64,000 bases of DNA from Kocuria sp. cx-455 (lineage in GTDB: Bacteria > Actinomycetota > Actinomycetes > Actinomycetales > Micrococcaceae): the NCBI RefSeq assembly GCF_014698015.1, contig NZ_JACXBS010000002.1, positions 682,001 to 746,000 of the forward strand, in the 5' to 3' direction. A program made the translations under genes and the position numbers. Each line of letters opens with the position of its first letter. Position 1 is the stretch's first letter. Shown here piece by piece: positions 30,941 through 49,778 of this stretch. The notes beneath the pieces are model-generated. The model saw only the letters and a program-made list of their open reading frames with translations, made no database searches and was not told where the DNA came from.

Positions 30941-33900
30941 ATGCATCCCGACGAAAGGCGCGATCCGCGTCATCTCAAGGAACTTGTGTACGCCCAAGCG
31001 GCGAGAGAACCGCGAGCCACGTTCGATGCCTTGGAGCGTGCTAACGCGTCCCTGCGGGGGCTCCAAGCGAAAGCAGAAGCGCAGAGGGCGAAACTTGCCA
31101 CGGTAACTCGGCAGCATCGCGCCCTGGCGCAGGAAAACCGGGACCTTGCTGAAGAGCTCGCCCAGTATCGGAAAGCCGCAGCAGGGGCCACCATTTCCAT
31201 AACCGACTCGGAAGCCGGAAGTGAAGTTGCGGCTTCGAGTGGTGACAATGAGCAAGCTACTTCCACTGAGGAAGTGGCTCCGGTTGCCGTGGCTCAGGAG
31301 GCGACGGAGGGTGGAGAGGACGAATCATCCGATATCCCGAGGGACATGGATCCGACGGCGGATGAAGATCCCGACGCGTCTGCCTTGGGCGAAGGCCCGG
31401 AACGGCTGATCTCGGAGATGGGTACCAGCGAAGTGCTGGACGCCTTCCACGGCAATCCAGATGCACCATTGTTGGCGGGTTGTCTCAACAGGCTGTGGTA
31501 CCGAGAAGGCGAAATCGACCGTGCGGAGCGATTAATTCGTGACCACCGTAATCTCGTCGGTGACCTGAACTCACGACAACGTGAACTCGTCGATCGAATC
31601 CTCGGGACAGTCTCCTTGCGGGAGAATCTCGATCAGCTCATACCCCAACGAGTGCGAGGCGCCGCTTACCACCCCGAACACAAACGCGTACTGTATTGCG
31701 CGTATTCCACCCCCATTTTCCACTCCAACGGGTACTCGGTACGGACCGAAGGCGTGGTCGCGGGCTTGAAGGCCTCCGGCGCGGACGTTACCGTCTTGGC
31801 ACGTGCCGGGTATCCGTGGGATATCACAACCGCGGATGCCAAACCCCGTAAACGTCGACACGTGGTTAATCGTCACGGTCTGGATTGGGTTCACCTGCCC
31901 GAGGGAAACATCTCTGCTCAGGGCCCACATGAATACATCAACGTGGCGGCAGATGCCGTGGTGCGACAGGCCAAGCTGTCCCGGCCCTCCGTGATCCACG
32001 CCGCATCGAACTATCTCAATGCGCTACCGGCCCTCATCGCGGCCAGGCGTCTGGGACTTCCGTTCGTGTATGAGGTGCGAGGCCTGTGGGAGGTTACGGA
32101 GGCTTCCACCAAACCAGGGTGGGACGAGACAGAGCGCTACGCCAACCAGGCATTCCTCGAAACTCTGGTGGCCCGAGAAGCAGATGCGGTTCTGGCCATT
32201 ACTCAAGAGGTCAGAGAAGAACTGATCCGCAGGGGTGTCCCTGCAGATCGAATTTCATTGCTACCCAACGGAGTCGACACCGGGGCGTTCCTGCCGCTGC
32301 CCCGTGATGAGGCATACGCCAAGCGACACAAGATTCGCACGGACGTACCGGTGATCGGGTTCGCCGGATCCTTCGTGGAGTACGAAGGTCTCCACTCATT
32401 GCTCCAGGCGGCGAACATCTTGCGCGGGCGTAAGGTCAAGTTTCACATGGTCCTTGCGGGGGCGGACGGTGTCTACGGCGACCTCAAGGAGTACCAAAAG
32501 AAGAATCGCTTGCAAGGGACGGTTCGATTCCTGGGACGTCGGCCTTCGGCCGAAATTCCCCGAGTGATGAGCTGTATAGACATCGTGGCCTGTCCCCGCC
32601 TGAGCCTGCCCGTTACGGAGATGGTTTCACCGCTTAAACCCCTGGAGGCCTTCTCAGCATCGAAACCCGTGGTGCTTTCGGACGTTTCTCCACACCGAAT
32701 TCTCGTCGGGGCCGATCAAGGGACTCACCAGGGCCCTCGAGGCATACTCAGCGCGGCCGGTGACCCCAAATCCTTGGCGAACGCCCTACAGCGCCTGATT
32801 GAGAATCCTGAGGAGCGGATCGCCATGGGGCAGGCTGGACGGCTTTGGGTCGTTGATGAGCGGCAGTGGGTGAATCTTGGTGACTCTGTTCGTGAGGCGT
32901 ACCGCTCAGCGTCTGAGAATTACGACCGCTTGGCGGCGGGTGGCCGACATCTGAAGAATCTTCGCATCGGACTGATTGCGGATGAGTTCACCACAGAAAC
33001 TTTGAACCGCTCGGTCACAATCGTTCCACTCGATCTCGAGACCTACGCGGAGCAAATCCGGGCCGAGAATTTGGACTTGGTGTTCATAGAGTCCGCGTGG
33101 AGCGGCAATGAGGGGCAGTGGCACCGGAAGGTGGGCCACTACTCGGACGAGGAACACGAGACGTTCCGTGACCTTCTCAAGCGCTGCCAAGAAATGAACG
33201 TTCCCACGGTCTTCTGGAACAAGGAAGACCCGGTCCACATCAATCGATTCCGCCGCACCGGCGCACTTTGCGATCACGTGTTCACAACGGACGCCGACAT
33301 GATTCCGGAGTATTTATCTCAGGCCCGCACTCTGAGCGGGGGACGGGCCCTGACGGCCTCTTCCATGCCGTTCTACGCGCAGCCGGCCATTCATAATCCG
33401 TTGCCCGGCAATCGGCCTCTCGAGAACACCGTCTCCTACGCGGGAACGTACTACGGCGAACGCTACGCAGAGCGTTCCCAACAGCTGGCTAACCTGTTGC
33501 GAACGGCAAAGCCATATGGTCTGGCCATCTATGATCGGCAAGCTGCGTATGCGGATTCGCCCTACCAATTTCCGTCCGAGTTCAAAGCCTCCGTGCGCGG
33601 CGCGTTGCCGTACGACCAGGTGATCGACAGCTACCGCGCACATGCAGCCAGCTTGAACGTCAACTCGGTCGCTTATTCCCCCAGCATGTACTCCCGAAGG
33701 GTCGTGGAGATCGCTGCGTGCGGTGGCGCCGTACTTTCCGGCTGGAGCCGCGGTGTCGCCGAAACGTTCGACGGTGCTATTCCGTCTACCAACAATGAGT
33801 ATTACTTCAAGGCCTTGTTGTCCGCTTGGACCTCGGACCCTCGTGAACGCCTCTCAGAGGTATGGTTGCAACTGCGCACCGTACTGCGGGCTCATACCGT

Positions 33901-35461
33901 GGATACCGCGCTCGTGATCTTGGCTCGCACGGCAGGAATCGCTGTGGCGGGGTTCGCACTCCCCACATGGGGTGCCGACGTCGAGCCGGGACAAGTTCGC
34001 GGAATCATCCGCCAATCGGCGGCTCCCGCCGCAGTGCGTCTTGCCCGCAATGACGACGGCGCTCGGACCAGTCTCGAAGAGCACGGCATTCGAGTGCTCG
34101 CTGCTTCATCACCCATCCCTGAGGACGTTGCTTTCTGGGGTTCATTACCCGAGAAGCATTCCCGAACGTGGGCGGAGGATCTGCTGCAGGCTACCCGCTG
34201 GGGACATTGGCAGAAACTGACCTCGCGGGAGTTCGCCGAAGGTGACGATGCCAGGCATTTTGCGGTACCGGGGGAGAACGTACTTGCTACCTCTGGTCTT
34301 GTAGCAAGCTCCGAATTGAGCGGCAACTCAGTCCAAGCAGAACTCACCGCGCCCGGGCTGAAAACTCTGACACTCACGGTGCCCCGCGGAGTGGAGCCAC
34401 GCGATGAACTGGTGCTTGCGGCGTCGTCGACGATTTCTCTTGAGCAACTCGGAACGGTGTTGATCGCCGGGCACGATCTCAAGTTCGCGGAGTCTTGGAT
34501 CGAGCACCTTCGTGAGCTCGGCGTGTCGGTCCTGGTGGACCGGTGGGAGAATCACGCCCACCATGATGAACAACGGTCCCGTGAACTGTTGTCACGAGCG
34601 GACACCGTGTTCTGCGAATGGGGCCTGGGCAATGCGGTTTGGTATTCACAACATGTGAGTGAAAATCACCGCCTGGTGGTCAGGGTTCATGCGCAAGAAC
34701 TACGTGGACCCTACCTGCGGAAGATCAACCACGCGGCAGTGAACCAGTACATTTTCGTGAGTGAGCTGATGCGCGAAGCAGCCATAGCGAGCCACGGTGT
34801 ACCACGAGCCATCACGAGCGTTATTCCCAATATTGTTCGCGCCGAATCGCTTGCCATGGAGAAGACACCCCACGCTGTGAAGACGCTCGGCTTTGTGGGC
34901 ATGGTGCCGCAGATGAAGCGACTGGACCGTGCGATCGATGTGATCGAGACGATTCTCGAGAAAGATCCCGAGTTCACGTTGCGGGTCAAAGGGAAGCGAC
35001 CCGAGGACTACCCCTGGATGCTCAAGCGCGAGCAAGAAATGGCGTGGTACGGCGAGTGCTACGAGCGGGCCCAAGCCTTAAACGACCGTCACGGGAGAGA
35101 GGTAGTTGCAGTTGATCCGCACGGTGATGACATGGCCGAGTGGTATCGAGGCATCGGCTACGGCATTTCTCTGAGTGATCATGAGTCCTTCCATCTCACG
35201 CTCCCGGACGTGGCCGCATCCGGAGGGGTTCCGGTGTCCTTGGACTGGCCAGGTGCTGACTTGATCTATCCGCGCGGGTGGTTGGTTCCCTCACCGGAGC
35301 ACATGGCCGGTCGAATCCTTCACCTGAGCCGCACGGAGCACGAACGCCTTGCCTTCGCCGCGCGAGCCGCAACATTCGCTCGTGAACGGTTCGATGAACG
35401 CTCTATCTTCGACCAGTTGGATATCACCCTGAGCCCAGGGCCCCGAGGAGCGCATGCATGA
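30941..35461 (+). CDS. giant multi-module glycosyltransferase (GT4 + CgeB-like + GT4-like)
   Basis: About 1506 aa, cytoplasmic. Modules in order: a coiled coil (about 15-75); an acidic linker; a small helical unit (about 150-235, EIDRAERLIRDH); GT4 (about 249-660, FHSNGYSVRTEGV, VYEVRGLWEV, SLLPNGVDTGAF, ACPRLSLPVTEMVSPLKPLEAF); a CgeB-like module (about 673-980, IGLIADEFT, VFIESAWSGN, TVFWNKEDPVH, FTTDADMIPEYL) with a 110-aa tail containing TWAEDLLQATRW; and a C-terminal GT4-like module (1172-1500, VLIAGHDLKFAE, CEWGLGNAVWYS, VIPNIV, FVGMVPQMKRLDRA, LSDHESFHLTLPDVAASGG). ATG 30941 is preferred because AGGAG lies 9 nt upstream; the open frame from 30836 begins inside the wecC hairpin. Probably a processive or multi-step polymer synthase (inference). 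Confidence 0.85.
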   Translation: MHPDERRDPRHLKELVYAQAAREPRATFDALERANASLRGLQAKAEAQRAKLATVTRQHRALAQENRDLAEELAQYRKAAAGATISITDSEAGSEVAASSGDNEQATSTEEVAPVAVAQEATEGGEDESSDIPRDMDPTADEDPDASALGEGPERLISEMGTSEVLDAFHGNPDAPLLAGCLNRLWYREGEIDRAERLIRDHRNLVGDLNSRQRELVDRILGTVSLRENLDQLIPQRVRGAAYHPEHKRVLYCAYSTPIFHSNGYSVRTEGVVAGLKASGADVTVLARAGYPWDITTADAKPRKRRHVVNRHGLDWVHLPEGNISAQGPHEYINVAADAVVRQAKLSRPSVIHAASNYLNALPALIAARRLGLPFVYEVRGLWEVTEASTKPGWDETERYANQAFLETLVAREADAVLAITQEVREELIRRGVPADRISLLPNGVDTGAFLPLPRDEAYAKRHKIRTDVPVIGFAGSFVEYEGLHSLLQAANILRGRKVKFHMVLAGADGVYGDLKEYQKKNRLQGTVRFLGRRPSAEIPRVMSCIDIVACPRLSLPVTEMVSPLKPLEAFSASKPVVLSDVSPHRILVGADQGTHQGPRGILSAAGDPKSLANALQRLIENPEERIAMGQAGRLWVVDERQWVNLGDSVREAYRSASENYDRLAAGGRHLKNLRIGLIADEFTTETLNRSVTIVPLDLETYAEQIRAENLDLVFIESAWSGNEGQWHRKVGHYSDEEHETFRDLLKRCQEMNVPTVFWNKEDPVHINRFRRTGALCDHVFTTDADMIPEYLSQARTLSGGRALTASSMPFYAQPAIHNPLPGNRPLENTVSYAGTYYGERYAERSQQLANLLRTAKPYGLAIYDRQAAYADSPYQFPSEFKASVRGALPYDQVIDSYRAHAASLNVNSVAYSPSMYSRRVVEIAACGGAVLSGWSRGVAETFDGAIPSTNNEYYFKALLSAWTSDPRERLSEVWLQLRTVLRAHTVDTALVILARTAGIAVAGFALPTWGADVEPGQVRGIIRQSAAPAAVRLARNDDGARTSLEEHGIRVLAASSPIPEDVAFWGSLPEKHSRTWAEDLLQATRWGHWQKLTSREFAEGDDARHFAVPGENVLATSGLVASSELSGNSVQAELTAPGLKTLTLTVPRGVEPRDELVLAASSTISLEQLGTVLIAGHDLKFAESWIEHLRELGVSVLVDRWENHAHHDEQRSRELLSRADTVFCEWGLGNAVWYSQHVSENHRLVVRVHAQELRGPYLRKINHAAVNQYIFVSELMREAAIASHGVPRAITSVIPNIVRAESLAMEKTPHAVKTLGFVGMVPQMKRLDRAIDVIETILEKDPEFTLRVKGKRPEDYPWMLKREQEMAWYGECYERAQALNDRHGREVVAVDPHGDDMAEWYRGIGYGISLSDHESFHLTLPDVAASGGVPVSLDWPGADLIYPRGWLVPSPEHMAGRILHLSRTEHERLAFAARAATFARERFDERSIFDQLDITLSPGPRGAHA

Positions 35462-35856
35462 TTCCCCCAAATGACACGCACGATTCCCCCGGACCGGAGC
35501 CCACTGTTGAGGACACCGTGAGTGAACTGCTGGTGACCCAGGCCCGTCAGATCCAGGATCTCAGCAAGGAACTGGCCAAGAGCTACGAGAAGGAACTGCG
35601 GTTCTTCGAGAACCTCAAGAGCAGGGATAGAAATTTTAAGAAGCAGGAAAATTCGCTGACTAAGAAAATCTGGTGGCTCGAGTCCGAACGGCGCCACCTG
35701 ATGGAACGCGAGAGCCGGCTGCAGGAACAAGTGGCGCAATTGACCGAGCAACGGGACGCCGCAGACCGTAATGTCAGACAATTGCGCGGCTCCAAGCTCG
35801 GGAAGCTTCAGAGCGGAATGTGGCGTGTGAGGAAAGCGGTGCGGTCATGGCGATGA
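35458..35856 (+). CDS. small coiled-coil protein
   Basis: 132 aa. Nearly the whole of residues 18-110 is heptad-rich (ELLVTQARQIQDLSKELAKS, LRFFENLKSRDRNFKKQENS, RESRLQEQVAQLTEQRDAAD), with a basic tail KLGKLQSGMWRVRKAVRSWR. There are no membrane segments. It overlaps the giant transferase by ATGA and the next transferase by several bases, so it is made in step with both. A scaffold joining transferases, or a membrane-binding chain-length ruler like the coiled coil of WbdD, is inference. Confidence 0.75.
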   Translation: MIPPNDTHDSPGPEPTVEDTVSELLVTQARQIQDLSKELAKSYEKELRFFENLKSRDRNFKKQENSLTKKIWWLESERRHLMERESRLQEQVAQLTEQRDAADRNVRQLRGSKLGKLQSGMWRVRKAVRSWR

Positions 35857-38594
35857 ACAATAAGCAAGTAGCACTGCGCAGCGCAGACGTGCGCTCCCGG
35901 ATCGCAGAACTCGAGCAGCTGCGGCAGCAAACGAAGTTGGATGCAAGCTGGTACAGCTCCGGTGCATTCAAGACCCACATCGCCCGTGGTAACGCGGACC
36001 GGCTGGCGCCGCGTGTTGATCCCGAGCGCTACGCCCGAATTCTCACCGATAACGGCCGCGCCGATCAGGTCCGAGAACTTCTGGAACTGACCCGCACCTT
36101 GCCGGATCATGCCGGAACCCGCGTGCTGCAACCGCACCCGGCCCGTGTCGCCATGGTCGCGGACACGTTCCTCTACGAAACGTTCGAAGGCACCGCGCGA
36201 ATCACGTACGTCACGCCCGAGAACTATCAAGAGGTGGCAGCGGAATCGGACGTGCTAATCGTGGCTTCCACGTGGCGCGGCCGTTTCGAGGACTGGCACG
36301 GCACTACATCCAACTGGGGCCCTCTACGCACGCAGGTCATCCCAGAGTTCAAATCCCGCGGTGTGCCGGTGATCTTCTATTCCAAGGAAGACCCGCCCAA
36401 TTACGCACTCTTCAGGCCCGTGGCACGGGACGCGGATGTGGTGTTCACGTCCGCGGAGGAAATGATCCCCAAGTACCTCGCGGACTGCCCAGATGTATCA
36501 CACGTCGAATCCATGACGTTCGGTGTCAATCCGCTGCTCCACAACCCAGTAGGATCCCGGCGGGTCAGGCGCCAGGAGATCCTGTTCGCCGGATCCTGGT
36601 TGTCCCACAAGTACCCACACCGTCAAACCTCCGCCAAGAAACTCTTCGACGGTGTACTGGAAACCGGGCGCGACTTGCTCATCGTGGACAGGAACTCCAC
36701 GCTGGGTGACCCCAAGTACCATTACCCGCAGCAGTACATGGACCACGTGGGTCCCGGCGTGGAACACCGCTCGCTCATGAAGATCCAGCGCATCGTCGAC
36801 GTGCAGCTCAATCTGAACTCGGTCACCAACTCCACCACCATGTACGCGAACCGCGCGGTGGAACTGCAGGCCATGGGGGCTTTCGTCCTGTCCAATTACT
36901 CGGTGGCCGTCAACGACCGGTACCCCGAGGTGCAGTTGATCGACAAGCAGCCCGAGGTCCCATTGGTCCTGAACGCCATGTCGGGAGACGTACTTTACCG
37001 GGCGCAGAACGACGGCCTGCGTCGCGTATGGGAACACGACACCGCATGGCAGCGCATGGCGCAATTGCTCAACTCCGTGGGGGCGCCCGTGGCCACCTTG
37101 TTCGAACGCACGGCCCTTGTCCCGGTGTCCGGAACGAGCCTTGAGAACGTGCGGAGTGTCGCGGCGGCTCAAACAGTGCCATCGGACGTACTCACTCTTG
37201 AAGAGATCGCCTCTCGTGGGGAACAGTACGACGTAGTCGTTCCGATCGCGGACGACCACGCGTACAGCAGCGTGCACGTGCGAGATCTCCTCAACGTGTT
37301 CCGCTACGCGGATGTGGACATCGCCACCAAGAACGGCAGCGAGACAAATTCCGTGATCACACACGGTGACGATCATGAATTGGTGGACCACGCGGTGGCC
37401 TCGGTACGGAGCGCCCTGCGAACGAATACCGAGGACGACGTTCTTGGGCGTTGGCTCGACACCGGTCGCGTGACCGGCAACGCCTACAGCACCGCACCGT
37501 TCGGTGCCGGCCCAAGAGGCGCCGAGCGCATTGACGTGACGGGAACCGCCAAACCGGAACTTACAGTGGTGGTGCCTGTTTACAACAACGGCAAACACCT
37601 GGTCTCCAAGTGCTTCCGTTCGCTGCAACGCTCCACGATCTTCGATCGCATGGAAATCCTCCTGATCGACGACGGTTCCACGGACGGTTACACGCCCCAG
37701 GTGGTGCGCGAACTGGCCGAGCGGCACCCTAGTGTTAAAGCGCACTTCTTCGAGACGGGCGGGTCGGGAAGCGCGTCCCGACCCCGCAACGAGGGGCTCA
37801 AGCTCGCGAGTGCCCCGTACATCACATACCTCGATCCGGACAACGAAGCCCTCAATGACGGCTTCCGAGTGCTGCTGGACGAGGTCAAGAATCTCAGGGT
37901 GCAGTTCGCGATCGGTGACATGATCAAGCTGTCCACCTGGCGGCGGCATGTTCACAACGCTTCCCTGCTGGAGAAGTCGCTTCCGGAGGACCCGGTGGGG
38001 GGCCTGATGGTGCCGGAGGACGCGCTTGCGTTGACCGATTTTCAACCCATGAGCATCCAGGCGCTCGTCGCGGACACGCAGTGGTTGCGCTCTATCGGCC
38101 TTTACCAGCCCATCGGCGCTCTGGGGCAGGACTCATTGGCGTTCCAACAGATGCTCCACGGGGCCCGACGCATTGCAACCGTGCGATTGCCGATCCATGT
38201 GTACTACGGTGCGGTCTCCAACTCGATGATCAACTCCGTTGGCCCTGGTTTTTTCCGTAAGTACTTGCCCATGGAGCGGTTCCGCAAGGAATGGCTCGAG
38301 CGGGACGGCCTGTATGAGGACTACTGCCGCTTGCGCGTGGACCCGTTCTTCAACGGGTGGTTGGTGGACAAATTCAACAAGTTCGTTTCACCGGAGCAGA
38401 AGGCGGAATGCCGCGCTCTGCTGGATGAACTCTGTGCGATTTACGATGTGAAGCTGGCTCGGAAGAACCCAGAGGATCCGGACTCTGACCTGCGCGTGCT
38501 CATCCGCCCGAGTGAGAAGCAGCCGGTGCCAGAGGACATCACCGCAGACCTCGAGGCCGACACCGCCCCACGGCGTGATCAGGGGAGCGAGTAG
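35847..38594 (+). CDS. CgeB-like module plus GT2 glycosyltransferase
   Basis: About 915 aa. Residues 100-420 are a CgeB-like module: RVAMVADTFLYETFEG, LIVASTWRGRFEDWHG, VIFYSKEDPPNY (about 174-185), DVVFTSAEEMIPKYL and LNLNSVTNSTTMYANRAVEL. A degenerate segment follows. Residues 570-800 are a GT2 domain: ELTVVVPVYNNGKHLV, LLIDDGSTDGY (about 605), GSASRPRNEGLKLA and TYLDPDNEALNDGF. The C-terminal 100 residues (KEWLERDGLYEDYCRLRVDPFF) resemble tails of teichoic-type transferases. ATG 35847 has GAGGAAA upstream; ATG 35853 would give an ATGA overlap. Substrates unknown. Confidence 0.82.
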   Translation: MAMNNKQVALRSADVRSRIAELEQLRQQTKLDASWYSSGAFKTHIARGNADRLAPRVDPERYARILTDNGRADQVRELLELTRTLPDHAGTRVLQPHPARVAMVADTFLYETFEGTARITYVTPENYQEVAAESDVLIVASTWRGRFEDWHGTTSNWGPLRTQVIPEFKSRGVPVIFYSKEDPPNYALFRPVARDADVVFTSAEEMIPKYLADCPDVSHVESMTFGVNPLLHNPVGSRRVRRQEILFAGSWLSHKYPHRQTSAKKLFDGVLETGRDLLIVDRNSTLGDPKYHYPQQYMDHVGPGVEHRSLMKIQRIVDVQLNLNSVTNSTTMYANRAVELQAMGAFVLSNYSVAVNDRYPEVQLIDKQPEVPLVLNAMSGDVLYRAQNDGLRRVWEHDTAWQRMAQLLNSVGAPVATLFERTALVPVSGTSLENVRSVAAAQTVPSDVLTLEEIASRGEQYDVVVPIADDHAYSSVHVRDLLNVFRYADVDIATKNGSETNSVITHGDDHELVDHAVASVRSALRTNTEDDVLGRWLDTGRVTGNAYSTAPFGAGPRGAERIDVTGTAKPELTVVVPVYNNGKHLVSKCFRSLQRSTIFDRMEILLIDDGSTDGYTPQVVRELAERHPSVKAHFFETGGSGSASRPRNEGLKLASAPYITYLDPDNEALNDGFRVLLDEVKNLRVQFAIGDMIKLSTWRRHVHNASLLEKSLPEDPVGGLMVPEDALALTDFQPMSIQALVADTQWLRSIGLYQPIGALGQDSLAFQQMLHGARRIATVRLPIHVYYGAVSNSMINSVGPGFFRKYLPMERFRKEWLERDGLYEDYCRLRVDPFFNGWLVDKFNKFVSPEQKAECRALLDELCAIYDVKLARKNPEDPDSDLRVLIRPSEKQPVPEDITADLEADTAPRRDQGSE

Positions 38595-38596
38595 TA

Positions 38597-41521
38597 ATGG
38601 TCAGCATCGAAGCTGCCCGGCGGCAGGCTCTGGGAACGCATTTCACCCCAGCTGAGAACGAGTACGAACTCGTGTCGCGGTTGAAAAAGAGGCGCTTACA
38701 CATGGCGCCCCATAAGGCATGGACCCTTCCCGAAGAGCCGACGTGGCGGGAAAACCCGTTCGACGACACTAATTGGCAATTCCAATACCACATGCTGCGA
38801 TGGCTGGATCCGCTTCGGCGGGCAGGAGCACTCGGGGATCAAGACGCTGCGGTCTTGTGGGAGAAATACGCGCGGTCCTGGGTCGAGGCAAACCCACCGG
38901 GGTCGGCGCGGTCCAAGTGGGCGTGGATTGACATGAGCGACGGTATCCGCGCCATGGAATTGTGCCACGGCCTAACAGTCGTGGGAGAACAACCCTGGCT
39001 GGTCAACTCCCTGCGGGATCACGTGGACTGGCTTATGGAGCCAAGCCATCTAAAGCGCGGCAATCATGGTTTCCACCAGCACGTGGGATTGTTCGTGCTC
39101 GGGGTGGTGCTGGAGGACCAGGCAGTGACGGATATTGCTTTGCAACGACTCACTGACCAGCTGAAGGCGGCCTACGACGAGCAGGGCGCAAATGAAGAAG
39201 GGTCCATCAGCTACCACCTGCAGAACTACGTCTGGTGGAACGATGCTTTTACACGCCTGGACCTCGAAGGTATCCCTCGCCCTGAGCAGGCCCACCGCCT
39301 GGATCTGGCCCCCACACTCATGGCACACGCAACCGCGCCCTCAGGGAGGTTTGCGCGCATCGGTGACACTGACGGTGGTAATGCGAGGAAACTAAATCAC
39401 CCGCATACGCGATTTACCGTGACCGAGGGGAAAAAGGGACGTAAACCCGACAGCACCACAGCCATCTACGATGCGGGTTATGCCTTCATCAGGAGTGGCT
39501 GGGGAGAAAGTCGGCCATACAAAGATGAAACCTTCATCACCGCCACGTGGGGTCGTCAGGACAAGGTTCACGGCCACCGTGATGGAGGATCGGTAACTTA
39601 CGCATCCGACGGCGTGCATTGGCTCGATGACACGGGCAAGTACTACTACGGCAAGAGTGCCATGCGCTCCTACGTGACCGGTCGGGCCGGGCACAACTCG
39701 ATCAATATCCCCGGGCGAACCTACCGCAAGGACACGGATGTTGAATTGACCGGGCACGAGGACACCGATCAGTACGTGGACTTGACGTTCCGGGACACGG
39801 GGTACGAGGGCGTCACGATCTTGCGTAGGGTCATCTACCTCCGCGGTAGGGACTTACTGCTAGTGCTGGACCAAGTCGCAGGTGACGACCCCCTCACCGC
39901 TGCTCAGCAGTGGCACTGCGGGCGTTCGGTCACGAGCCGCGCCCTGGGAACCGGGTTTCGGCTCGAATCCGAGTCCGGGGCCAGGTTGGTCATTGCACTG
40001 CATGGAACGCCGGAACTGAGTATCGCGAGGGCCCAGGAGCAGCCCATGGCCGGCTGGACCTCCACGGGATGGCGCAAAAAGGGCCCGGTGGACCTGCTCA
40101 GTTTTCAACAAACCAAGCTGAACCCGCGCTTCGCGACTCTGGTAGGTATGTGGGACCCACAGGTAATCAGGCACCTGGAGGCTGCACTGCGCGAGAACGG
40201 TGCCTGGGAACTCCCGGTTTCGGAACTCTTCTCGGAGGAGCTGCTGGAAGCACAGGTGCCGAAGGCCGAGGCCACCACGGCAACGAAGGCTGCGGTGACC
40301 TCGAGCGGCGTCGGTCCCGACGGTCCCGTGCCAGTATCGGTCACGGCGAAGCCAGGACGCGTTCCGGGCGACAGTGGCGACAAGACAGTTGTCATCGAGA
40401 CTGTGTTCTGCGATGGCGAGACCAAGCTCATGACTCAAATGTTGTACTTCCGGCGTTTCGAGCGAACGCTGTTGAGCATGTCGCGCGTGCGGGTACCTCA
40501 GGGTGTCCGAGCGATTTACGTCATCTACATCTCGTCCGACAAGAAGCAGTGGCTTCCACGACTACGGACCGCCGTGGGGCATTTCGCCCAGTCGTGGCGG
40601 ATGGAGACAAAAATCGTAGTATACGCTCACCCGTCCCACGGATACCCTGCGCTGACCGCGGGGCACCCAGACGTTCTCAAGGGCCCCAACAAGCAGGCGC
40701 CGCTGCGAAACCGGTTGTTCCTCGCGGCGCAACTGGACATCGCAGCCGATCACACTCTGGTCCGAATGACCATCGACGACGACGATTTGTGGTTGCCGTG
40801 GCAACTCGAAGAGATGATCAGCGCGATCAATACGGCCTACGCACACACGGAGTACCCGGCGTTCGGGATCGGGCTGCGCAGAAATCTCCTCGCCCATGTG
40901 GAAGAGAACGGGGTTCGGATTGAGAACGTGTCCATGAGTCGGATGCTCACGGGAAACAAGGCCTTTGTCTTCCCGCCGGAGCAGCGCGACAGGGCACTAC
41001 TGTACGCCCCCTGGAACGTGCCGGAAACGATGACCGAGAATTACCGCGAGCAGTACCGAGCCCAGGGCATTGACCTGCTGGTGTACGAGGGCAATCGGCC
41101 TGGTTTCGTGTACATGCGCCGCGGGACCAACCTGTCGATTCAGCAGAAAACCGGGTTCATCACCGCGACACACGCAGTGTCCACTGTTGACACCGAGAAC
41201 ACGTTGCTGGGCCACCTCTCGGAACCGTCACGGCCCTCATCGATTTCCGAGGGCTCGTTTACGATCGACCCCCCGGTGTACAGAATCACGGTCAAGCGCA
41301 CCGGGGATGACATTTCTTATTACAGCAACGTCAAGAGCGCTCTGGGCAACGATGTCCGACTCGCCTTCCACCTGCTGCGCGGCACCACGGTCGTCGCGAA
41401 GACCGGTTACGGGCGAGTGACCAGCGGGGTGTTCCGCAAAGCGCCTGCGGGGTGTCGCGTGAAGATGTACGTCCAAAGAGCGGATCAGAGCCGCGAATCA
41501 AAGGTGTCCAATGTCGTTTGA
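38597..41521 (+). CDS. heparinase II/III-fold lyase fused to a glycosyltransferase-like domain
   Basis: 974 aa, no signal peptide. Residues 50-250 are an (alpha/alpha) toroid with GNHGFHQHVG (Asn156, His157) and ISYHLQNY (Tyr206, His207). Residues 285-560 are a beta-sandwich with KVHGHRDGGSVTYASDG (His327) and GRAGHNSINI. These are the Asn/His/Tyr/His elements of heparinase II/III-type uronate lyases. Residues 600-870 look like a GT-A domain (YVIYISSDKKQWLPRLR, RNRLFLAAQLDIAADHTLVR, MTIDDDDLWLPWQLEEM with Asp-rich metal motif near 730), related to putative rhamnosyltransferases. A chain-making and a chain-cutting domain in one cytoplasmic protein is unusual. It starts 3 nt past the previous stop. 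Confidence 0.8.
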   Translation: MVSIEAARRQALGTHFTPAENEYELVSRLKKRRLHMAPHKAWTLPEEPTWRENPFDDTNWQFQYHMLRWLDPLRRAGALGDQDAAVLWEKYARSWVEANPPGSARSKWAWIDMSDGIRAMELCHGLTVVGEQPWLVNSLRDHVDWLMEPSHLKRGNHGFHQHVGLFVLGVVLEDQAVTDIALQRLTDQLKAAYDEQGANEEGSISYHLQNYVWWNDAFTRLDLEGIPRPEQAHRLDLAPTLMAHATAPSGRFARIGDTDGGNARKLNHPHTRFTVTEGKKGRKPDSTTAIYDAGYAFIRSGWGESRPYKDETFITATWGRQDKVHGHRDGGSVTYASDGVHWLDDTGKYYYGKSAMRSYVTGRAGHNSINIPGRTYRKDTDVELTGHEDTDQYVDLTFRDTGYEGVTILRRVIYLRGRDLLLVLDQVAGDDPLTAAQQWHCGRSVTSRALGTGFRLESESGARLVIALHGTPELSIARAQEQPMAGWTSTGWRKKGPVDLLSFQQTKLNPRFATLVGMWDPQVIRHLEAALRENGAWELPVSELFSEELLEAQVPKAEATTATKAAVTSSGVGPDGPVPVSVTAKPGRVPGDSGDKTVVIETVFCDGETKLMTQMLYFRRFERTLLSMSRVRVPQGVRAIYVIYISSDKKQWLPRLRTAVGHFAQSWRMETKIVVYAHPSHGYPALTAGHPDVLKGPNKQAPLRNRLFLAAQLDIAADHTLVRMTIDDDDLWLPWQLEEMISAINTAYAHTEYPAFGIGLRRNLLAHVEENGVRIENVSMSRMLTGNKAFVFPPEQRDRALLYAPWNVPETMTENYREQYRAQGIDLLVYEGNRPGFVYMRRGTNLSIQQKTGFITATHAVSTVDTENTLLGHLSEPSRPSSISEGSFTIDPPVYRITVKRTGDDISYYSNVKSALGNDVRLAFHLLRGTTVVAKTGYGRVTSGVFRKAPAGCRVKMYVQRADQSRESKVSNVV

Positions 41522-42797
41522 ACCCTCTCGACCGTGTCAGCACGAGTCCCCCTACCACGACCACCACGAGTGGGGCTCCGTCGATCAGTTCCTGCAGGAC
41601 CTCTCAGCGGTCCGGGACGGACTGCATTGCATTCAACTGGGCCATGAACAGCACTTGGACGTGCTGCTGCGTGACGCGCCCCTGGACCCGGCGTCCAGGG
41701 TAAGTTCCGTCTTCTTCAACGGTGCCGTCACCCAGCGGGCCACCAAGACCCCGCCGTTCCTGTCCGGTGCGGGCATGAGCAAGAAGCTGAATCTGCCCTT
41801 GATTTCCTTCGCGGATCCCACGCTTAACCTGAGCCAGGATCTGGGCCTGGCCTGGTACCTCGGTGCGCAAGGCGTGGACGTCCAGGGTGCCATCGCTCGG
41901 ATCCTGCGGGAGGCCATCGACTATTCCGGTAACGACCTGTGGCTCGTTGGCGGATCCGGAGGCGGTTTCGCTGCGCTGCAGGCAGCGCAGCGCGTCGGTC
42001 CCGGTTGCCATGCTTTGGTGTGGAATCCCCAGACCGATGTCCTCGACTACTCACCTCGACTCGTCAAGCAGTTCTTGGAGACCACCTATGAGTCCCTGCG
42101 GGGGCACCTTGACGGCGTGGATTGGAAGGAGCGCGCGCGCGAAGTCCTGTCCCAGGACGGTGTCCAGTGGGACCTCAAGACCACGTACGAGAAGGGTTTC
42201 GCATTCGACAGCCTCTTGCTGTTCCAGAATTGGAACGACTGGCACACCCGCAGCCACGCGGTCCCGTGGTTGAAGGCAATCCCGGGGGTGCGCGAAATGT
42301 GGCCCGGTGTGCACGGCACGGATTCCGATCATGTGCTGTGGCTGACGGAAGCCGGTGACGGACACGCGCCACCTCCGGCAGAGTCCGTCCAGCGGATGCT
42401 CGAGCACCTGGCGCATTTCGGACTGTCTCCACTGAACGCGGTCAAATGGAGTCAACGCACGGGGTTGTTCCCGACCGAGCACCAGCAGGAGTACGTGAGC
42501 GATCTGCGCGGTCAACGCGAGGTCCTCGAACATGCGATCCAATTCGTATATCTCAAGGGCGAGCGCATCATTCCGACCCTTAAGAACCTGAACGTGGACT
42601 TCGGCGGTGTGCGGTTCCGGTACGAGCTCGTGCACCGGGGCCAGGTGGTGGAGACCAAGCTGGCCCGTTCGGGAAGCGCATACGTGGCGGAGCAACCGAA
42701 TGGTCCGTGGGACTATGTGAGGGTCACTGTGCTAGATGGCTTCGACCACGACCTGTTCGACGTGAGCTTCGTGAATCAGAGCTTGGAGAACCAGTGA
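41511..42797 (+). CDS. alpha/beta hydrolase, Asp2-like GGSGGG type
   Basis: 428 aa. The nucleophile elbow is LWLVGGSGGGFAALQAAQ (Ser about 147) and the late catalytic His is in EAGDGHAPPPAES. The stretches VFFNGAV, LSQDLGLAWYLG, VWNPQTDVLDYSPRLVKQFL and LLLFQNWNDWHTRSHAVPWL recur in the N-terminal half of the protein encoded at 51940-54009, so the two are paralogues. Such hydrolases in glycan loci often move or remove acyl groups (Asp2 is an O-acetyltransferase for Ser-rich glycoproteins); the reaction here is inference. The ATG overlaps the lyase gene by 11 bp. Confidence 0.78.
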   Translation: MSFEPSRPCQHESPYHDHHEWGSVDQFLQDLSAVRDGLHCIQLGHEQHLDVLLRDAPLDPASRVSSVFFNGAVTQRATKTPPFLSGAGMSKKLNLPLISFADPTLNLSQDLGLAWYLGAQGVDVQGAIARILREAIDYSGNDLWLVGGSGGGFAALQAAQRVGPGCHALVWNPQTDVLDYSPRLVKQFLETTYESLRGHLDGVDWKERAREVLSQDGVQWDLKTTYEKGFAFDSLLLFQNWNDWHTRSHAVPWLKAIPGVREMWPGVHGTDSDHVLWLTEAGDGHAPPPAESVQRMLEHLAHFGLSPLNAVKWSQRTGLFPTEHQQEYVSDLRGQREVLEHAIQFVYLKGERIIPTLKNLNVDFGGVRFRYELVHRGQVVETKLARSGSAYVAEQPNGPWDYVRVTVLDGFDHDLFDVSFVNQSLENQ

Positions 42798-43615: not shown

Positions 43616-43618
43616 CAG

Positions 43619-45313
43619 ATGTCGGCACATGACATGGACACCGTAATCACCACCGATGTGCTCGGGCGTCGGGACGCAGCCGTCGCGTCCGAACTAGTTG
43701 GAGGGCGCTTGGAGCTGTGCGGGCACACGTGGCAGATCCCGGTCAGGCCGCACTGGTCTGAAGACCCGTTCAAGGACTTCGAATGGCGCCGTCAGTACCA
43801 ATCACTGAGCTGGCTCACGCCGCTGCGGCGTCGTGCCGTCTCAGGGGACCTGAACGCTCTGCAGGCATGGTGGTGGCTGGCCGCGACCTGGCTTGAATCC
43901 CTAGATCGGCTTGAACCCGGTCAAGCCACCCCGTGGCGCATGGACGTGGCGTCCGTACGGGCCTGTGAACTGGTGGCCGGTCTCAGCGCGGTGGGGAGGC
44001 AACCATGGCTGCTCGCCGCGATCACCACACATTCGGCGTGGTTGGATGCCACGGCGGGACAGTCCGAATCCTCCGGCGCGCACCCGGTGACGTTGGCTGC
44101 ACGGTACGTCTGTCACCGAACTGTCGGGGACACCGCAACAGCTGACGAGTGTCTTGCGTCGCTCGCGGACTGGCGGGCAAACCATTTCTCCCAGGTGGGC
44201 GCCCCGTACCCTGATACCGCAAACTTCTTGATGCTAGGCACTCGCGCCATCGACACAGTGGAATCCTGCCTGACAGGCGTCTCGGCTCCGCTACCGTGGC
44301 CCGATCACAATCAACCGCTCGCACAGTGTCTCGTGAACACCCAGGTAGAACGGGTGGCCGAGGGCGACGTTAGGCCAGAGAGCCGCTCCGACCAACAAGT
44401 CCGGTCCTTCGTCCTGGAGACTGATCGGGCTGCCTACGCCAGCGTGTCTGGCACGCCGACCGGCGGGGGGTTCGTGGGGTTCGAGGAGTCCCGCGATGGA
44501 TCCACCGTGGATGTTTCGTTCGCGCACGGCGGCAGGGTATGGCTGCGAGGTGTAGTCCCGTCCGACGGTGCCATTCGGGAGCCCTTAAATTCGTACAGCG
44601 TTCAGACGACCAACGTCGCATTCGAGATCGGTCTCGATCGGACCAGCCGTCATGGTCATTCCGAGCGGCATCGACTCTTGCATTCGCTGTCCTCGGGAGT
44701 GACCCTCTGGGAAAGCGACACGGAGGCCCCGTTCGAACTGCCCGAATGGTTCAAGACGGTTGACGTTGTGTCCGACCTGACGGCGACAGTGTCACCCGGG
44801 TCGATTCGTTTAGTGGGCGGTACCCTTACGTTCTTTCTGGTGCGCTTGCCCGTCCCAAACACTTCCGATGAGCTCGCCCCAGCCGATCGCTGGGATCCGT
44901 CCTTCCGTCTATACGTCGGTCCCTGGCACGCGCGTTTGGTTGACGTGCTGCATCAATCCGGCCCGGCCACCGCACAACTCACAACGGAACGCTTGTCGCG
45001 GCTTGCGGGTCCCCCCGAACCGGATGGTGATCTCCTGGATGTCTACGCGGGTGCAGGGTGGCGGATTACCTCGAACCGGACGGTCTTGCGCGCGGAACAG
45101 TCGAGAGTCCCGGGTGCCGGGCACCTGGTCTTGACGTCTTCTAACGACAAGCATGTGGTGACCGGCCGCGGCTCGCGTTCCAAAACCGGATACCTGGACA
45201 TCGGCAATGTGCCCCACGGGGAGTACGACCTTATGTGGATCCCCGTTGACGGATCAGCACGCCGAGGACCGCGATTGGCACTCACCGACGATTCGGTGGA
45301 TCTAGCGCACTGA
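43619..45313 (+). CDS. degenerate heparinase-fold paralogue (probable non-enzyme)
   Basis: 564 aa. Residues 35-180 follow the lyase encoded at 38597: WSEDPFKDFEWRRQYQSLSW, LTPLRRRAVSGDLNALQ, WRMDVASVRACELVAGLSAV and GRQPWLLAAI align with its WRENPFDDTNWQFQYHMLRW, DPLRRAGALGDQDAAV and GEQPWLVNSL. At the catalytic points it differs: the NHG stretch is SSGAHPVTLA and the Tyr-His motif is YPDT. No HGHxDGGS motif remains. It is therefore probably a binding or regulatory relative. No signal peptide. It sits between the pyruvyltransferase (3 nt away) and a lipoprotein gene. Confidence 0.72.
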   Translation: MSAHDMDTVITTDVLGRRDAAVASELVGGRLELCGHTWQIPVRPHWSEDPFKDFEWRRQYQSLSWLTPLRRRAVSGDLNALQAWWWLAATWLESLDRLEPGQATPWRMDVASVRACELVAGLSAVGRQPWLLAAITTHSAWLDATAGQSESSGAHPVTLAARYVCHRTVGDTATADECLASLADWRANHFSQVGAPYPDTANFLMLGTRAIDTVESCLTGVSAPLPWPDHNQPLAQCLVNTQVERVAEGDVRPESRSDQQVRSFVLETDRAAYASVSGTPTGGGFVGFEESRDGSTVDVSFAHGGRVWLRGVVPSDGAIREPLNSYSVQTTNVAFEIGLDRTSRHGHSERHRLLHSLSSGVTLWESDTEAPFELPEWFKTVDVVSDLTATVSPGSIRLVGGTLTFFLVRLPVPNTSDELAPADRWDPSFRLYVGPWHARLVDVLHQSGPATAQLTTERLSRLAGPPEPDGDLLDVYAGAGWRITSNRTVLRAEQSRVPGAGHLVLTSSNDKHVVTGRGSRSKTGYLDIGNVPHGEYDLMWIPVDGSARRGPRLALTDDSVDLAH

Positions 45314-45352
45314 GACCATCACCCTTATCCATCCCCCCGAGAAAGGCACATT

Positions 45353-45694: not shown

Positions 45695-45740
45695 CTCCGC
45701 CCACCCGCTAATCAATCGATACGTTTGAGGTTCATGTCGA

Positions 45741-48700
45741 ATGTCTGTCACCCCGTCAGTTTCGGTACGTGAGTACATGATCGGTGGGCGAGATGTGTTA
45801 ATGTGCGTCTCGGACGAGGAGAATATAGACCTGCACGTTGATCTCCCATGCACGACATCAACCACATTCACCCTAGAATCCCATTCTGGGGCCGTCCTGA
45901 TCGTGGGGCGTCTGGCGCTGGACCGACACTTCTTGGCTGCAGTCCGAGCAGACGCCTCCCTGTACGCGATGCTGACCCCCGCAACGGTTCGGCAACTCCA
46001 TGAGATGGCGCAACCCGGTGCGCGAGAGGTCCTCGAAACCTTAGTTCGGCGGGCGACGGTTCTAGTGGACTCGAATACTGATCTCGAATCTGTGACTGTA
46101 CGCATCCCTAAGTGGACGGCGCGCGTCGAGAGCGTAGGAGGCAATGGTGTTTTAGGGGCACTGCAGGCATCCGCACGACCCGTGGTTGAGCGCGGGAGCG
46201 TATTGGTTAATGTCGCGAGACCGTGGCGGCCGTCGGACCTCAAGGACAGCCCGATCCACTTCTTGGTGGACCGGAAGGGGGATCTCGAGTCATTCGTCGG
46301 TTCGCGGGCACATTGGATGCCGGCTGAGGAGAACTCGCGGGACGCTCACGGGTTCGTGGAGGCCCGAAGGATCGCCTGGTACGTGCTGGGTGCCACTCAG
46401 GCGCTTAACGCGCACTTGGTCGTGACTGACCGGATCTCTCTCGTTTCCGCTCTGATCACGTCGCCGAATATCCCCGCCCGTACCGCGTACCTGGTCGACA
46501 CCGCCGAAATCCAGCAGCTTGAACAAGAACCTCCACGAAACCTGAGCGGCATCTTCCGAAAACTGCACGAACGGCGGGGCATGGTGTTGTGTTCTCACAC
46601 ATCTGTTGTTCCGCGGTTACGCGCTTTGGGGTTTAGTGGAAAGTTTGAGATTTTCGATCCGTTGGTGGCCCCAGACACTTCGCGGATCCACCAACTGGGG
46701 GTACAGAGCACACCAGCGGTCATTCTCCCGGAGCCGAAGAATTTGCTGATCGCCGGGCACGACTACAAGTTCCTGGGAGAACTCGTCTCCGTTCTGGACG
46801 AAATCCCCGGGCTCACAGTGACGTACGACGAATGGCCAACCCAGAGCACTCATGACGTCTCTCGGTCTGATGAACTTCTTTCGGCGGCGGACGGGATTCT
46901 GTGTGAGTTCTCCTCACACAACGCGGTCTGGTATTCATGGCACAAACGTCCCGGTCAGCGGTTGATCGTACACTTCCACGGGTACGAGTTGTTCCAGGAC
47001 TTTGTGCACGACATCAACGTGGACAACGTGGACCTGTTCGTATTTGTGTCTGAGTTCTACCGTCGGCGGGTCGTCCAGGAACTGGGATGGCCCAACGAGC
47101 GCACCGTGGTGGTGCCCAACATGATCGATATTGGGGACTACAGAGGGGTCAAGATCCCAGACGCTCGGTTTCACCTGGGCCTAGCCGGTTACGTACCGAT
47201 CCTGAAACGCCCTGACCGTGCGCTGGATCTGCTCGAAATGCTGCTGGAACACGATGACCGCTACGTGCTGCACTTACGAGGTCGTAATCCCTGGGATTAC
47301 TCCTGGATGTGGCAACAACCCGTGACACAGGACGCCTACCGGGCATTCTACGAACGTCTCACCGACGATCCCGAACTGCTCGCCCACGTGTCCTTCGATC
47401 CGTTCGGGCCGGACATGGGTCAGTGGTTTCGCCGGATCGGGTGGATGTTGTCCCCGAGCTCGAGGGAGACATTCCATTTGGCTCCCGTCGAGGGTCAGGC
47501 GAGCGGCGCAATCCCTGTGGTGTGGGACCGTGAAGGAGCGGCGGAAATTTTCCCAGGAGAATTTGTACACGCGGACACGCAGGCCGCGGCCCGTGCGATC
47601 ATCAATGCTAACCAGCAAGCGAATCGATACGACCGCGCCGCAGCAAATGCGCGCCGGTCCGTCGAGCGTTTTGACGTCGCGGCGGTCACTTCCCAGTGGG
47701 CGGACGCCTTGTTCGGAGAGGGCCGGCGCGCACCGCAGATCTCGGAGTGTTTTGAGCGGTCTGATTTGCTCGACAGGTTGCAGCGGGACGGTCGTACCGA
47801 AGATCTGGATCGGCTGATCCTCCTAGTTCTCCTACGGGAGCAAGACCTCACGGCAGCCGAGGAACTAATTGAACGGTTCCCCGAGCATCGTTCAGATCTC
47901 AGTGCCTTAACCCGGGACACACTGCGAGAGATGCGCATGGATCAATCGTTCCGGACGGGTGGGTTCGCCCGACCCCCGCGCAGCCTTGGAGTGGCGTATC
48001 AGCCGCGCTACGGTACCGCGCTGTTCGTGCGCGAAGGCACCGATTGGGACACGGTACCGGTTGATGCTGTTCAGATCATCGCGGATACTGTCACCCGCCA
48101 AGCCAGGGTCGAACGCCCAGCGGCCCTTGCGGTCGCACCCGATGCGGTGGCCGCGTGGGGAACCCTGGTGGCCGCACGTCGCCTGGGCATTCCCGCAATC
48201 CTGGTTGGGGAGCGCGGCCAGGATGAGTGGTTTCCGCCCGCAGACGAGTTCGACGCTGCGGTGACCCGCGAGGGCGAAGTTACCAGCGACGTCGTCCAAG
48301 CGGCCGTGACCATGCATGCCCGCCTTGCCAAGCACACGGACTCCGTATCACTGAGCGAGCTCACGGTAGGCATGATTGCGGATGAGTTCACGGAACGTAC
48401 GATCTCCGGCCGCTGCCGCGTCATCCGCATTCCGCGCCATGACGCCTATCTCTCCGTGGTCGCGCATGATCTGGACGTGTTGTTCGTGGAGTCCGCTTGG
48501 AGCGGGCATGGGAAGCAATGGTTCCACGGCGTCGCGTACTACAAGGATGATCGTGAGGACATTGAACGCGTGATTGCCACCGCGCGGGCCAAGGGCGTGC
48601 CGGTGATCTTTTGGAACAAGGAGGATCCGGTCCATTTCCGCTCTTTCGCCCCCACCGCAGCTCTGTGCGACGCCGTGTACACCACGGATGCGGACAGAAT

Positions 48701-49778
48701 CCCCGCGTACCTTGAACTCGGGGGCGAGCACCGGCCCGCCGCGGTGGCATCTATGCCATTCTTCGCGGAACCGACTCTGCACCATCCACTGCCCGGCACC
48801 TGGGCCGAGAAACCCACGGTCAGCTATGCGGGCACCTACTACGGCGCGCGGTACGCGGAACGTTCTGAAGAACTCGACGTCATCCTGGGTGCTGCCGCCC
48901 AGCTTGGGCTGACGATTTACGATCGACAGATCAACATTCCCAACTCACCGTATCGTTTTCCGGCGCGCTACGACGAGTTCATTGAGGGCGGCCTGAGCTA
49001 CGAGGAGGTTCTCGAGGCTTACAAGGCACACCCGGTGCATATCAATGTCAACTCGGTCAAGGACTCACCCACCATGTTCTCCCGGCGGGTTGTGGAGATC
49101 GCCGCGTCCGGTTCCGTGGTCGTCAGCGGAAAGGGCAGGGGAGTGCGCGAATCCCTTCCAGCGGTCACGGCGAGTGACAATTCCGAAACTCTGGGCATCG
49201 TGATGGCCGGCTGCCTGGGAGATCGGTCCCATTGGCGCGCCTCCGCATGGGCCCAATTACGGGCCGTCCGCCGTTCCTACCTAGCCGAATACGCACTGGC
49301 CGTGATGTTCCGGGGCGCGGGCGTTCCAGTGCGGCTAGCGGACGAGACGGCTTGGAGCGCAGTTGTAGATCGACTCACACCGGAGATCGCCACGAACCTC
49401 GCAGAACAAACGCACCCGCCCACTGGGGTGTCGGCATTATTAGCCGACGACGCTGCTCTGGCTACCCTGATCGCGCGCGGCATCCCGGTCACTGACTCGC
49501 CTGTGACACAGTGGACCGCGCGATGGGAGGAAGTTGCAACACCCACGTGGGCGGAAGACCTCATGTACGCGGCGCGCTTCGCACCCGATGACGTTTCCCG
49601 GATTGGCGCACGAACGGGAACGCGACATGAGCGGGGGCTGATCACATGGGACGGTGCCACTCGCGGTCCGGTGTTCTCGCGCGAAATGCAGGACACCGGG
49701 CGGACGCTGATCTGGCTCCTGCCCGACCAAGACCAGAAACCTTTTGAGGACGAGCGCCCGGAGGAGACCCATGAATGA
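45741..49778 (+). CDS. giant multi-module glycosyltransferase with permuted module order
   Basis: 1345 aa, cytoplasmic. Residues 1-330 are not recognised. Residues 336-656 are a GT4-like module (LLIAGHDYKFLGELV, CEFSSHNAVWYS, VVPNMID, LAGYVPILKRPDRALDLLEM, SPSSRETFHLAPVEGQASG) homologous to the C-terminal module of the protein at 30941-35461. Then come a helical unit (675-730), a shortened GT4 remnant (747-830, VTRQARVERPAALAVAPDAV, LVAARRLGIPAILVGERG), a CgeB-like module (874-1170, VGMIADEFTERT, LFVESAWSGHG, VIFWNKEDPVHF, YTTDADRIPAYL) and a tail with TWAEDLMYAARF. In the other giant the first module comes last. The start is preceded by a weak binding site. Likely transferase in the same polymer pathway. 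Confidence 0.83.
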   Translation: MSVTPSVSVREYMIGGRDVLMCVSDEENIDLHVDLPCTTSTTFTLESHSGAVLIVGRLALDRHFLAAVRADASLYAMLTPATVRQLHEMAQPGAREVLETLVRRATVLVDSNTDLESVTVRIPKWTARVESVGGNGVLGALQASARPVVERGSVLVNVARPWRPSDLKDSPIHFLVDRKGDLESFVGSRAHWMPAEENSRDAHGFVEARRIAWYVLGATQALNAHLVVTDRISLVSALITSPNIPARTAYLVDTAEIQQLEQEPPRNLSGIFRKLHERRGMVLCSHTSVVPRLRALGFSGKFEIFDPLVAPDTSRIHQLGVQSTPAVILPEPKNLLIAGHDYKFLGELVSVLDEIPGLTVTYDEWPTQSTHDVSRSDELLSAADGILCEFSSHNAVWYSWHKRPGQRLIVHFHGYELFQDFVHDINVDNVDLFVFVSEFYRRRVVQELGWPNERTVVVPNMIDIGDYRGVKIPDARFHLGLAGYVPILKRPDRALDLLEMLLEHDDRYVLHLRGRNPWDYSWMWQQPVTQDAYRAFYERLTDDPELLAHVSFDPFGPDMGQWFRRIGWMLSPSSRETFHLAPVEGQASGAIPVVWDREGAAEIFPGEFVHADTQAAARAIINANQQANRYDRAAANARRSVERFDVAAVTSQWADALFGEGRRAPQISECFERSDLLDRLQRDGRTEDLDRLILLVLLREQDLTAAEELIERFPEHRSDLSALTRDTLREMRMDQSFRTGGFARPPRSLGVAYQPRYGTALFVREGTDWDTVPVDAVQIIADTVTRQARVERPAALAVAPDAVAAWGTLVAARRLGIPAILVGERGQDEWFPPADEFDAAVTREGEVTSDVVQAAVTMHARLAKHTDSVSLSELTVGMIADEFTERTISGRCRVIRIPRHDAYLSVVAHDLDVLFVESAWSGHGKQWFHGVAYYKDDREDIERVIATARAKGVPVIFWNKEDPVHFRSFAPTAALCDAVYTTDADRIPAYLELGGEHRPAAVASMPFFAEPTLHHPLPGTWAEKPTVSYAGTYYGARYAERSEELDVILGAAAQLGLTIYDRQINIPNSPYRFPARYDEFIEGGLSYEEVLEAYKAHPVHINVNSVKDSPTMFSRRVVEIAASGSVVVSGKGRGVRESLPAVTASDNSETLGIVMAGCLGDRSHWRASAWAQLRAVRRSYLAEYALAVMFRGAGVPVRLADETAWSAVVDRLTPEIATNLAEQTHPPTGVSALLADDAALATLIARGIPVTDSPVTQWTARWEEVATPTWAEDLMYAARFAPDDVSRIGARTGTRHERGLITWDGATRGPVFSREMQDTGRTLIWLLPDQDQKPFEDERPEETHE

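Follow-up and report, generated by a model that had tools for sequence, protein, structure and literature searches.

Two giant proteins carry shared modules in opposite order

We analysed a window of 64,000 nt from Kocuria sp. cx-455 (contig NZ_JACXBS010000002.1, positions 682,001 to 746,000), to which the coordinates below refer. It contains a polysaccharide locus in which two plus-strand genes encode giant multi-module proteins, here called A and B. Protein A (30941..35461) has 1506 aa, or 1541 aa if an alternative in-frame ATG at 30836 is used as start. Its coiled-coil or helical N-terminus, whose match to PF08614 (21.5 bits) lies below the cut-off of 33.7, is followed by a complete module of glycosyltransferase family 4 (GT4) of the GT-B type (31679..32851; PF13692 E 9.5e-29, PF00534 E 1.2e-26, PF13579 E 4.7e-26), which covers positions 2–381 of the 381 in our own GT4 profile. 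Next come a CgeB-like glycosyltransferase module (32954..33901), a tail that is probably a relic of a family 2 glycosyltransferase (GT2, GT-A type; 33911..34429; HHalign) and a GT4-like module with the sequence LIAGHDLKF and an E-x7-D motif (34454..35407). The CgeB-like module was recognized by PF13524 (E 4.3e-21 for the whole protein, which it matches in three stretches, the best being residues 880–988) and by our own hidden Markov model (HMM; 408 bits). We refer to the last module as the LIAGHD module (LM), LM1 being the subfamily in A and LM2 the subfamily in B.

Protein B (45741..49778, 1345 aa) starts with a relic N-terminal lobe (46113..46655, limits approximate) of XN, a GT-B domain commonly found upstream of LM in free LM proteins; it was found by comparing XN with BN, the stretch of B before LM2, in HHalign. 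It is followed by LM2 (LIAGHDYKF; 46740..47687), which has the GT-B/GT4 fold and keeps E-x7-E, by a helical unit with a GT4 N-lobe relic that lacks the C-lobe (47688..48356; HHalign, predicted structure), by a CgeB-like glycosyltransferase module (48357..49286), and by a tail that is again a probable GT2 relic (49296..49676; HHalign).

A BLASTP comparison of A with B returned two significant off-diagonal blocks. The CgeB-like module and tail of A (A647–1088) matched B845–1281 (39%, 295 bits, E 1.5e-85), the LM of A (A1156–1492) matched B318–652 (37%, 199 bits, E 1.8e-55), and the two blocks thus stand in opposite order in the two proteins. A weaker GT4 piece was also seen (A301–376 with B754–820; 33%, 45 bits, E 3e-8). 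When 200 shuffled copies of B were compared with A, the top alignment scored 28.1 bits. The permuted module order and the LIAGHD motifs described in the first-pass annotation are therefore correct, and so is its "GT4 remnant" in B, in which only N-lobe columns are left (60–179 of the 381 in the GT4 profile; HHalign 97.4%, E 1e-11).

Both proteins pass the PF13524 cut-off of 25 bits (A 75.8, B 31.9), and LM2 of B passes that of PF00534 (28.8 against 26.4 bits, residues 489–639). Every Pfam family above cut-off in A and B is a glycosyltransferase family, and the LM modules have the GT-B fold. Compared with BshA and other GT4 enzymes (PDB 2jjm, 4xsp, 4x7r), to which the alignments show 12–20% identity, LM forms a separate subfamily with its own motifs. 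An NCBIfam scan of B named no family at E 0.01, a PDB sequence search with the C-terminal half of B returned nothing at E 0.001, and the accessible part of the open-licence PMC literature yielded no description of A, B or the LM module.

Occurrence of the two orders

To place these proteins we built HMMs for the modules, surveyed 395 genomes of the family, and read the architectures in fetched loci (numbered L; genomes are numbered G). The LM module of B matches 92 of the 395 genomes (E 0.001), and its CgeB module matches 55 genomes in 64 places (E 1e-60). When LM and CgeB matches were joined by frame, the CgeB-then-LM order of A was present in 54 genomes and the LM-then-CgeB order of B in six, every one of which also has A; one place (G326) was assigned to neither class. 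Some A frames are cut or frameshifted and therefore short (909–1235 aa).

A seventh B-order protein was found in Arthrobacter sp. SX1312. The reversed architecture thus occurs in seven distinct genomes or records, namely the window, K. palustris (L085), K. atrinae (L007/L118), Arthrobacter (L086, L088 and L010, the last being SX1312) and L087. B is therefore not an assembly artefact. Of the named relatives identified, K. atrinae is the nearest, at 83% in the best-matching segment of B. Its B gene (L007, 3472–7424) consists of two overlapping frames with the break inside LM, which is either a frameshift or a draft-assembly error.

A split form was seen in three of the surveyed genomes (G165, G265, G327), each also with an A-order frame. 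Here an LM protein of 505–525 aa and a separate protein of 781–795 aa with GT4 relic, CgeB and tail are encoded with a GT2-type gene between them. The LM protein of the split form in L131 has 516 aa and is frameshifted.

The two halves of B have separate ancestries

Trees were calculated for the CgeB module (38 of 76 rows) and for LM (63 of 80 rows, near copies and long branches being omitted); quick trees on all 76 and 80 rows agree with these reduced trees. In the CgeB tree the seven B rows form a clade (support 100/98) nested among A, and a single clade of all 20 A rows is rejected by the approximately unbiased test (p-AU 0.00016). The CgeB half of B is therefore a true paralogue of the CgeB half of A.

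The LM tree gives another picture for the other half. There B lies within the LM2 clade (100/99), nearest to LM2 proteins of 1088–1690 aa (98/93), whereas the A-type LM together with seven free LM1 rows forms a separate clade (97/89). Joining B to this whole clade (21 A and seven free LM1 rows) is rejected (p-AU 2e-7, log-likelihood difference 89), as is joining it to the eight Kocuria-type A rows (seven from Kocuria, one from genus g3; p-AU 1.5e-71). Holding the LM of A and B together with the free LM1 rows forced out is also rejected (p-AU 1.6e-44), although this test is harsher, because the free LM1 rows nest inside A and A alone is not a clade. The two blocks thus do not share one closest ancestor. 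A single clade of B and the split forms has a p of 0.39 for CgeB and 0.044 for LM.

The stretch ahead of LM2 bears on the same question. BN 132–307 aligns with XN 6–183 (HHalign 96.5%, E 7.7e-10), and most of XN is itself GT4-like (95%, E 2.8e-8). For the B proteins of the window and of K. palustris the relic was visible by profile-profile comparison only and went undetected in a single-sequence HMM search, which did find it in four Arthrobacter-type B proteins. Since the relic stands before LM2, XN and LM2 would have entered B as one block and the CgeB half would have come from an A-like gene. The position of the CgeB of B inside the A clade, the different subfamily of its LM and the XN relic together point to B being an LM2 gene joined to a copy of the front half of A. 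In L086 and L088, B carries two tandem XN N-lobe relics before LM2 (residues about 80–374), with weak single-sequence matches of 16–21 bits.

Catalytic signs and half-domain relics

E-x7-E is a motif of GT4 and GT-B glycosyltransferases. In LM2 of B it is present together with the K in all seven rows, and the H in six, the seventh being truncated. For LM1 of A, 19 of 21 rows show E-x7-D and two show E..E, so the two LM types probably do different jobs. The CgeB module of the window's B has the commonest residue at all 30 positions that are conserved in at least 93% of the 76 rows.

We estimated constraint as the ratio of nonsynonymous to synonymous rates (dN/dS) along B. Between the window and K. 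atrinae, a single species pair, it was 0.060 for LM2 (last 195 codons only) and 0.061 for CgeB, compared with 0.16 for the GT4 relic, 0.18 for the helical unit, 0.15 for the tail and 0.25 for the C-terminus. Against K. palustris, where dS is saturated, the values were 0.18 for LM2 and 0.14 for CgeB, and 0.41, 0.37, 0.34 and 0.54 for the GT4 relic, helical unit, tail and C-terminus. The relics are therefore more loosely constrained than the catalytic modules, yet not free. In structure predictions covering the two halves of B, the helical unit and GT4 relic were modelled with a predicted local distance difference test score (pLDDT) mostly of 65–95, and the relic has a compact fold.

Shortened domains recur elsewhere. 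In B, the split forms and the 1670-aa proteins XN is kept only up to about column 171–200 of 388. The 1670-aa proteins also keep the N-lobe of CgeB (columns 2–165; 96.6%, E 6.5e-10 with a profile of five proteins), and a GT2-type part lies downstream in those examined for it (L089, L097). More generally, the LM2 proteins of 1400–1690 aa (L089 8513–13579, L090 8410–13422, L091, L093, L097) represent one more mosaic of the same origin; taken together, they have N-lobe relics of GT4 and CgeB downstream of LM2 by profile comparison, the single-sequence matches being weak.

The tail of A and B resembles the first half of the GT2 in CgeB-GT2 proteins (HHalign with 34 tails, 67%, E 5e-5; an earlier comparison with 29 tails gave 37%, E 3.6e-4), and the tail of both giants is thus probably a relic of half a GT2. 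CgeB plus tail is collinear with CgeB plus GT2 across 422 columns, most of which are CgeB. The reversed control reached 0.1%. As a piece of GT4, CgeB, LM or XN the tail was rejected (at most 4.3% with 34 tails and 6% with 29). A profile comparison of X1N, the domain before LM1 in free proteins, with all modules gave nothing above about 10%.

CgeB and LM modules outside the giants

At the level of the phylum, LM is present in 20 of 396 genomes, including the window's own (E 1e-10). Nineteen loci were read from the LM-bearing genomes; 18 hold LM, and nine of these also hold a CgeB gene, which in most cases adjoins or overlaps the LM frame on the same strand. A CgeB gene stands next to an XN-LM gene in distant Actinomycetota (L172, L175, L176, L178–L180) and in Stappia (L012). 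In Stappia the order is CgeB then XN-LM, and in Paenibacillus CgeB then GT2-LM.

CgeB is fused to LM in 27 of 103 LM frames, a set in which some frames are counted twice in overlapping loci and some lie on short contigs. A CgeB gene lies within 500 bp of a further 20 frames and within 10 kb of another 19, and the remaining 37 show no CgeB within 10 kb in the stretch examined. In 40 of the 103, LM is preceded by XN or its relic. The CgeB-LM pairing probably predates both giants. It occurs as a CgeB-LM fusion, as an LM-CgeB fusion, as separate adjacent genes and as split genes with another gene between them. As the arrangement varies in this way, module order carries no evident information.

The surrounding polysaccharide locus

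On the plus strand upstream of A lie genes for the membrane and ATPase parts of an ABC exporter (25685..27605; PF01061 E 4.8e-8, PF00005 E 5e-19), as expected for an ABC transporter-dependent glycan polymerase, and a gene for a CgeB-like plus GT2 protein (27599..29488), whose architecture is the apparent source of the tails in A and B. Another CgeB-like plus GT2 protein of 924 aa is encoded downstream of A (35820..38594, plus strand; GT2 PF00535 E 5.5e-17); it reaches only 16.7 bits with PF13524, below the cut-off, and 330 bits with the module HMM. Besides A, B and these two further CgeB-like proteins, the locus encodes GT4 enzymes, a UDP-GlcNAc 2-epimerase and two UDP-sugar dehydrogenases, together with a pyruvyltransferase, heparinase II/III-like proteins and a member of the LCP family. 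The epimerase (Epimerase_2, E 4.2e-116) and the dehydrogenases are genes of the kind needed for a UDP-uronic acid, the candidate sugar suggested by this gene content. In K. palustris most of the locus is conserved, from the CgeB-GT2 gene through B to the epimerase.

In one of the heparinase II/III-like proteins (38597–41521, plus strand) the C-terminus is extended by a long region that includes an acidic DDDD stretch, looks GT-A-like by eye and has no Pfam match at E 0.1. The N-terminal part of this protein resembles residues 22–195 of the product of 43619–45313 (plus strand; 34%, E 5e-21). The latter has no Pfam family above cut-off and is likely a degenerate copy of the heparinase II/III-like protein.

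Three proteins share a hydrolase-like module but differ in what accompanies it (41511–42797, plus strand; 51940–54009 and 55048–57852, minus strand): it stands by itself, ahead of DUF6270, and close to the end of a 934-aa protein. The similarities are 34% (E 1.7e-32), 33% (E 1.7e-5) and 30% (E 5e-4). DUF6270-type genes also lie near B in L086, L087 and L088, and L010 shows a shorter stretch that matches the hydrolase module, so modification genes may accompany B as it moves.

Discussion

Taken together, we consider it probable that A and B are mosaic multi-module glycosyltransferases whose reversed order arose by independent fusions in a locus for an ABC-exported cell-wall glycopolymer. The source would be an old pair of CgeB-like and LM modules, often encoded by neighbouring genes outside the family. 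In A the pair would have been fused as CgeB then LM behind a GT4, giving GT4, CgeB, GT2 relic, LM1. B would have arisen separately when a copy of the front half of A (GT4, CgeB, tail) was joined behind an XN-LM2 gene, and would then have lost the C-lobes, which are the donor-sugar lobes, of XN and GT4; the outcome is XN N-lobe, LM2, GT4 N-lobe, CgeB, GT2 relic. We predict that B most likely transfers two sugars, at its LM2 and CgeB sites, and A up to three, by GT4, CgeB and LM1. The acceptor would be a growing lipid-linked chain, which the ABC transporter would export and the LCP ligase attach to the wall. The UDP-GlcNAc 2-epimerase and the two UDP-sugar dehydrogenases suggest a teichuronic-acid-like polymer.

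Several points weigh against this explanation. In the CgeB tree the placement of B beside Kocuria-type A has a support of only 87/88, the closest LM relatives of B are other large LM2 proteins and not a plain XN-LM2 gene, and the tested clades were picked after an initial look at the quick trees. The order of events is not fixed by the data, as the split forms may be either ancestral or broken fusions. LM1, in which Asp replaces the second Glu in 19 of the 21 A proteins, may have a different action or none, and the link between tail and GT2, reaching only 67%, is probable and not certain. Half of the 18 outgroup LM loci show no CgeB in the stretch examined; several of these are on short contigs, but L174, L183, L185, L186 and L187 are 20-kb stretches in which no CgeB was seen, which does not fit a strict CgeB-LM pairing.

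A possibility that we regard as appreciable, though short of even, is that the lobe-only stretches are working parts, i.e., acceptor-binding lobes or lobes for docking to the membrane or a complex that are under selection. It is consistent with the repeated retention of N-terminal halves (XN in B, the split forms and the 1670-aa proteins, GT4 in B, CgeB in the 1670-aa proteins), with dN/dS values for the GT4 relic and helical unit well below 1 against K. atrinae, and with the compact predicted fold of the GT4 relic. However, constraint on these stretches is about 2.5–3 times weaker than on the catalytic modules, the difference is also seen against K. palustris (0.34–0.41 compared with 0.14–0.18), a deletion at a fusion joint would likewise leave N-terminal halves, and the retained folds may be linkers only. 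The wider proposal that this lineage has repeatedly trimmed GT-B, and possibly GT-A, domains to N-terminal halves selected as non-catalytic acceptor-binding or docking lobes is more tentative still.

It is unlikely that B is a decaying pseudo-enzyme left behind by recombination and lacking an important role. Its relic lobes, the restriction of its order to six of 395 genomes and the broken frame in K. atrinae would fit such decay, but LM2 and CgeB are strongly constrained (dN/dS about 0.06) and retain their conserved residues, and the frame of B is open in K. palustris, which retains most of the same locus, and in Arthrobacter.

The first-pass annotation had proposed an assembly-line-like logic for the synthesis of polymer repeats. 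We read this as a megasynthase whose module order would dictate the sequence of sugars in the repeat, with B and A laying down two mirror-image steps. Many modules per polypeptide, a single locus and ABC export are in line with this. We find it very improbable, as the same modules are fused either way round, lie in adjacent genes or are separated by another gene, the Pfam families above cut-off are all glycosyltransferases, and several modules are relics. The same annotation had offered module shuffling or a circular permutation between paralogues; the shuffling stands, but a true permutation, in which a tandem duplicate of A was trimmed at both ends to leave LM1 ahead of GT4 and CgeB, would explain the crossed order and the A-like origin of the CgeB-tail unit but is rejected, and is the least credible reading, given the rejected union of the LM modules, the XN relic ahead of the LM of B, and the difference between E-x7-D in most LM1 and E-x7-E in LM2.

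Micrococcus luteus belongs to the same bacterial family as the window's organism. Its teichuronic acid synthetase is described as a 440-kDa octamer built from two types of glycosyltransferase subunit, with four copies of each type in the authors' model (PMC3005890); by this description it is comparable in that transferases act jointly in one complex, but it needs no transporter. WsaE of the Geobacillus stearothermophilus S-layer glycan is described as a large cytoplasmic enzyme with two glycosyltransferase domains in an ABC-dependent pathway and differs from A and B in having a methyltransferase domain (PMC2943079). Also comparable in description are the multi-module polymerases of the Klebsiella WbbB, O4 and O7 systems for ABC transporter-dependent O-polysaccharides, which likewise combine several glycosyltransferase modules with an ABC exporter in the locus and in which the modules lie in one or in separate proteins, varying among relatives (PMC11231755). 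They are Gram-negative lipopolysaccharide systems, and the main text of that source, in the part available, mentions neither reversed fusions nor half-domain relics ("remnant" and "inactive" occur 0 times; PMC11231755).

What A and B add to this known variability in module distribution is a reversed order that came about by independent fusion, with half-domain relics. The phylogeny shows that reversed module order in polymer-building glycosyltransferases can arise by independent fusions and loss of catalytic lobes, and module order here looks like an accident of fusion. Should the leftover lobes turn out to have a function, such enzymes would contain a new type of part, and pseudo-glycosyltransferase lobes would be building parts of modular polymerases. 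The locus offers a natural experiment, in which the wall polymer could be compared among genomes with A only, with A and B, and with the split forms.

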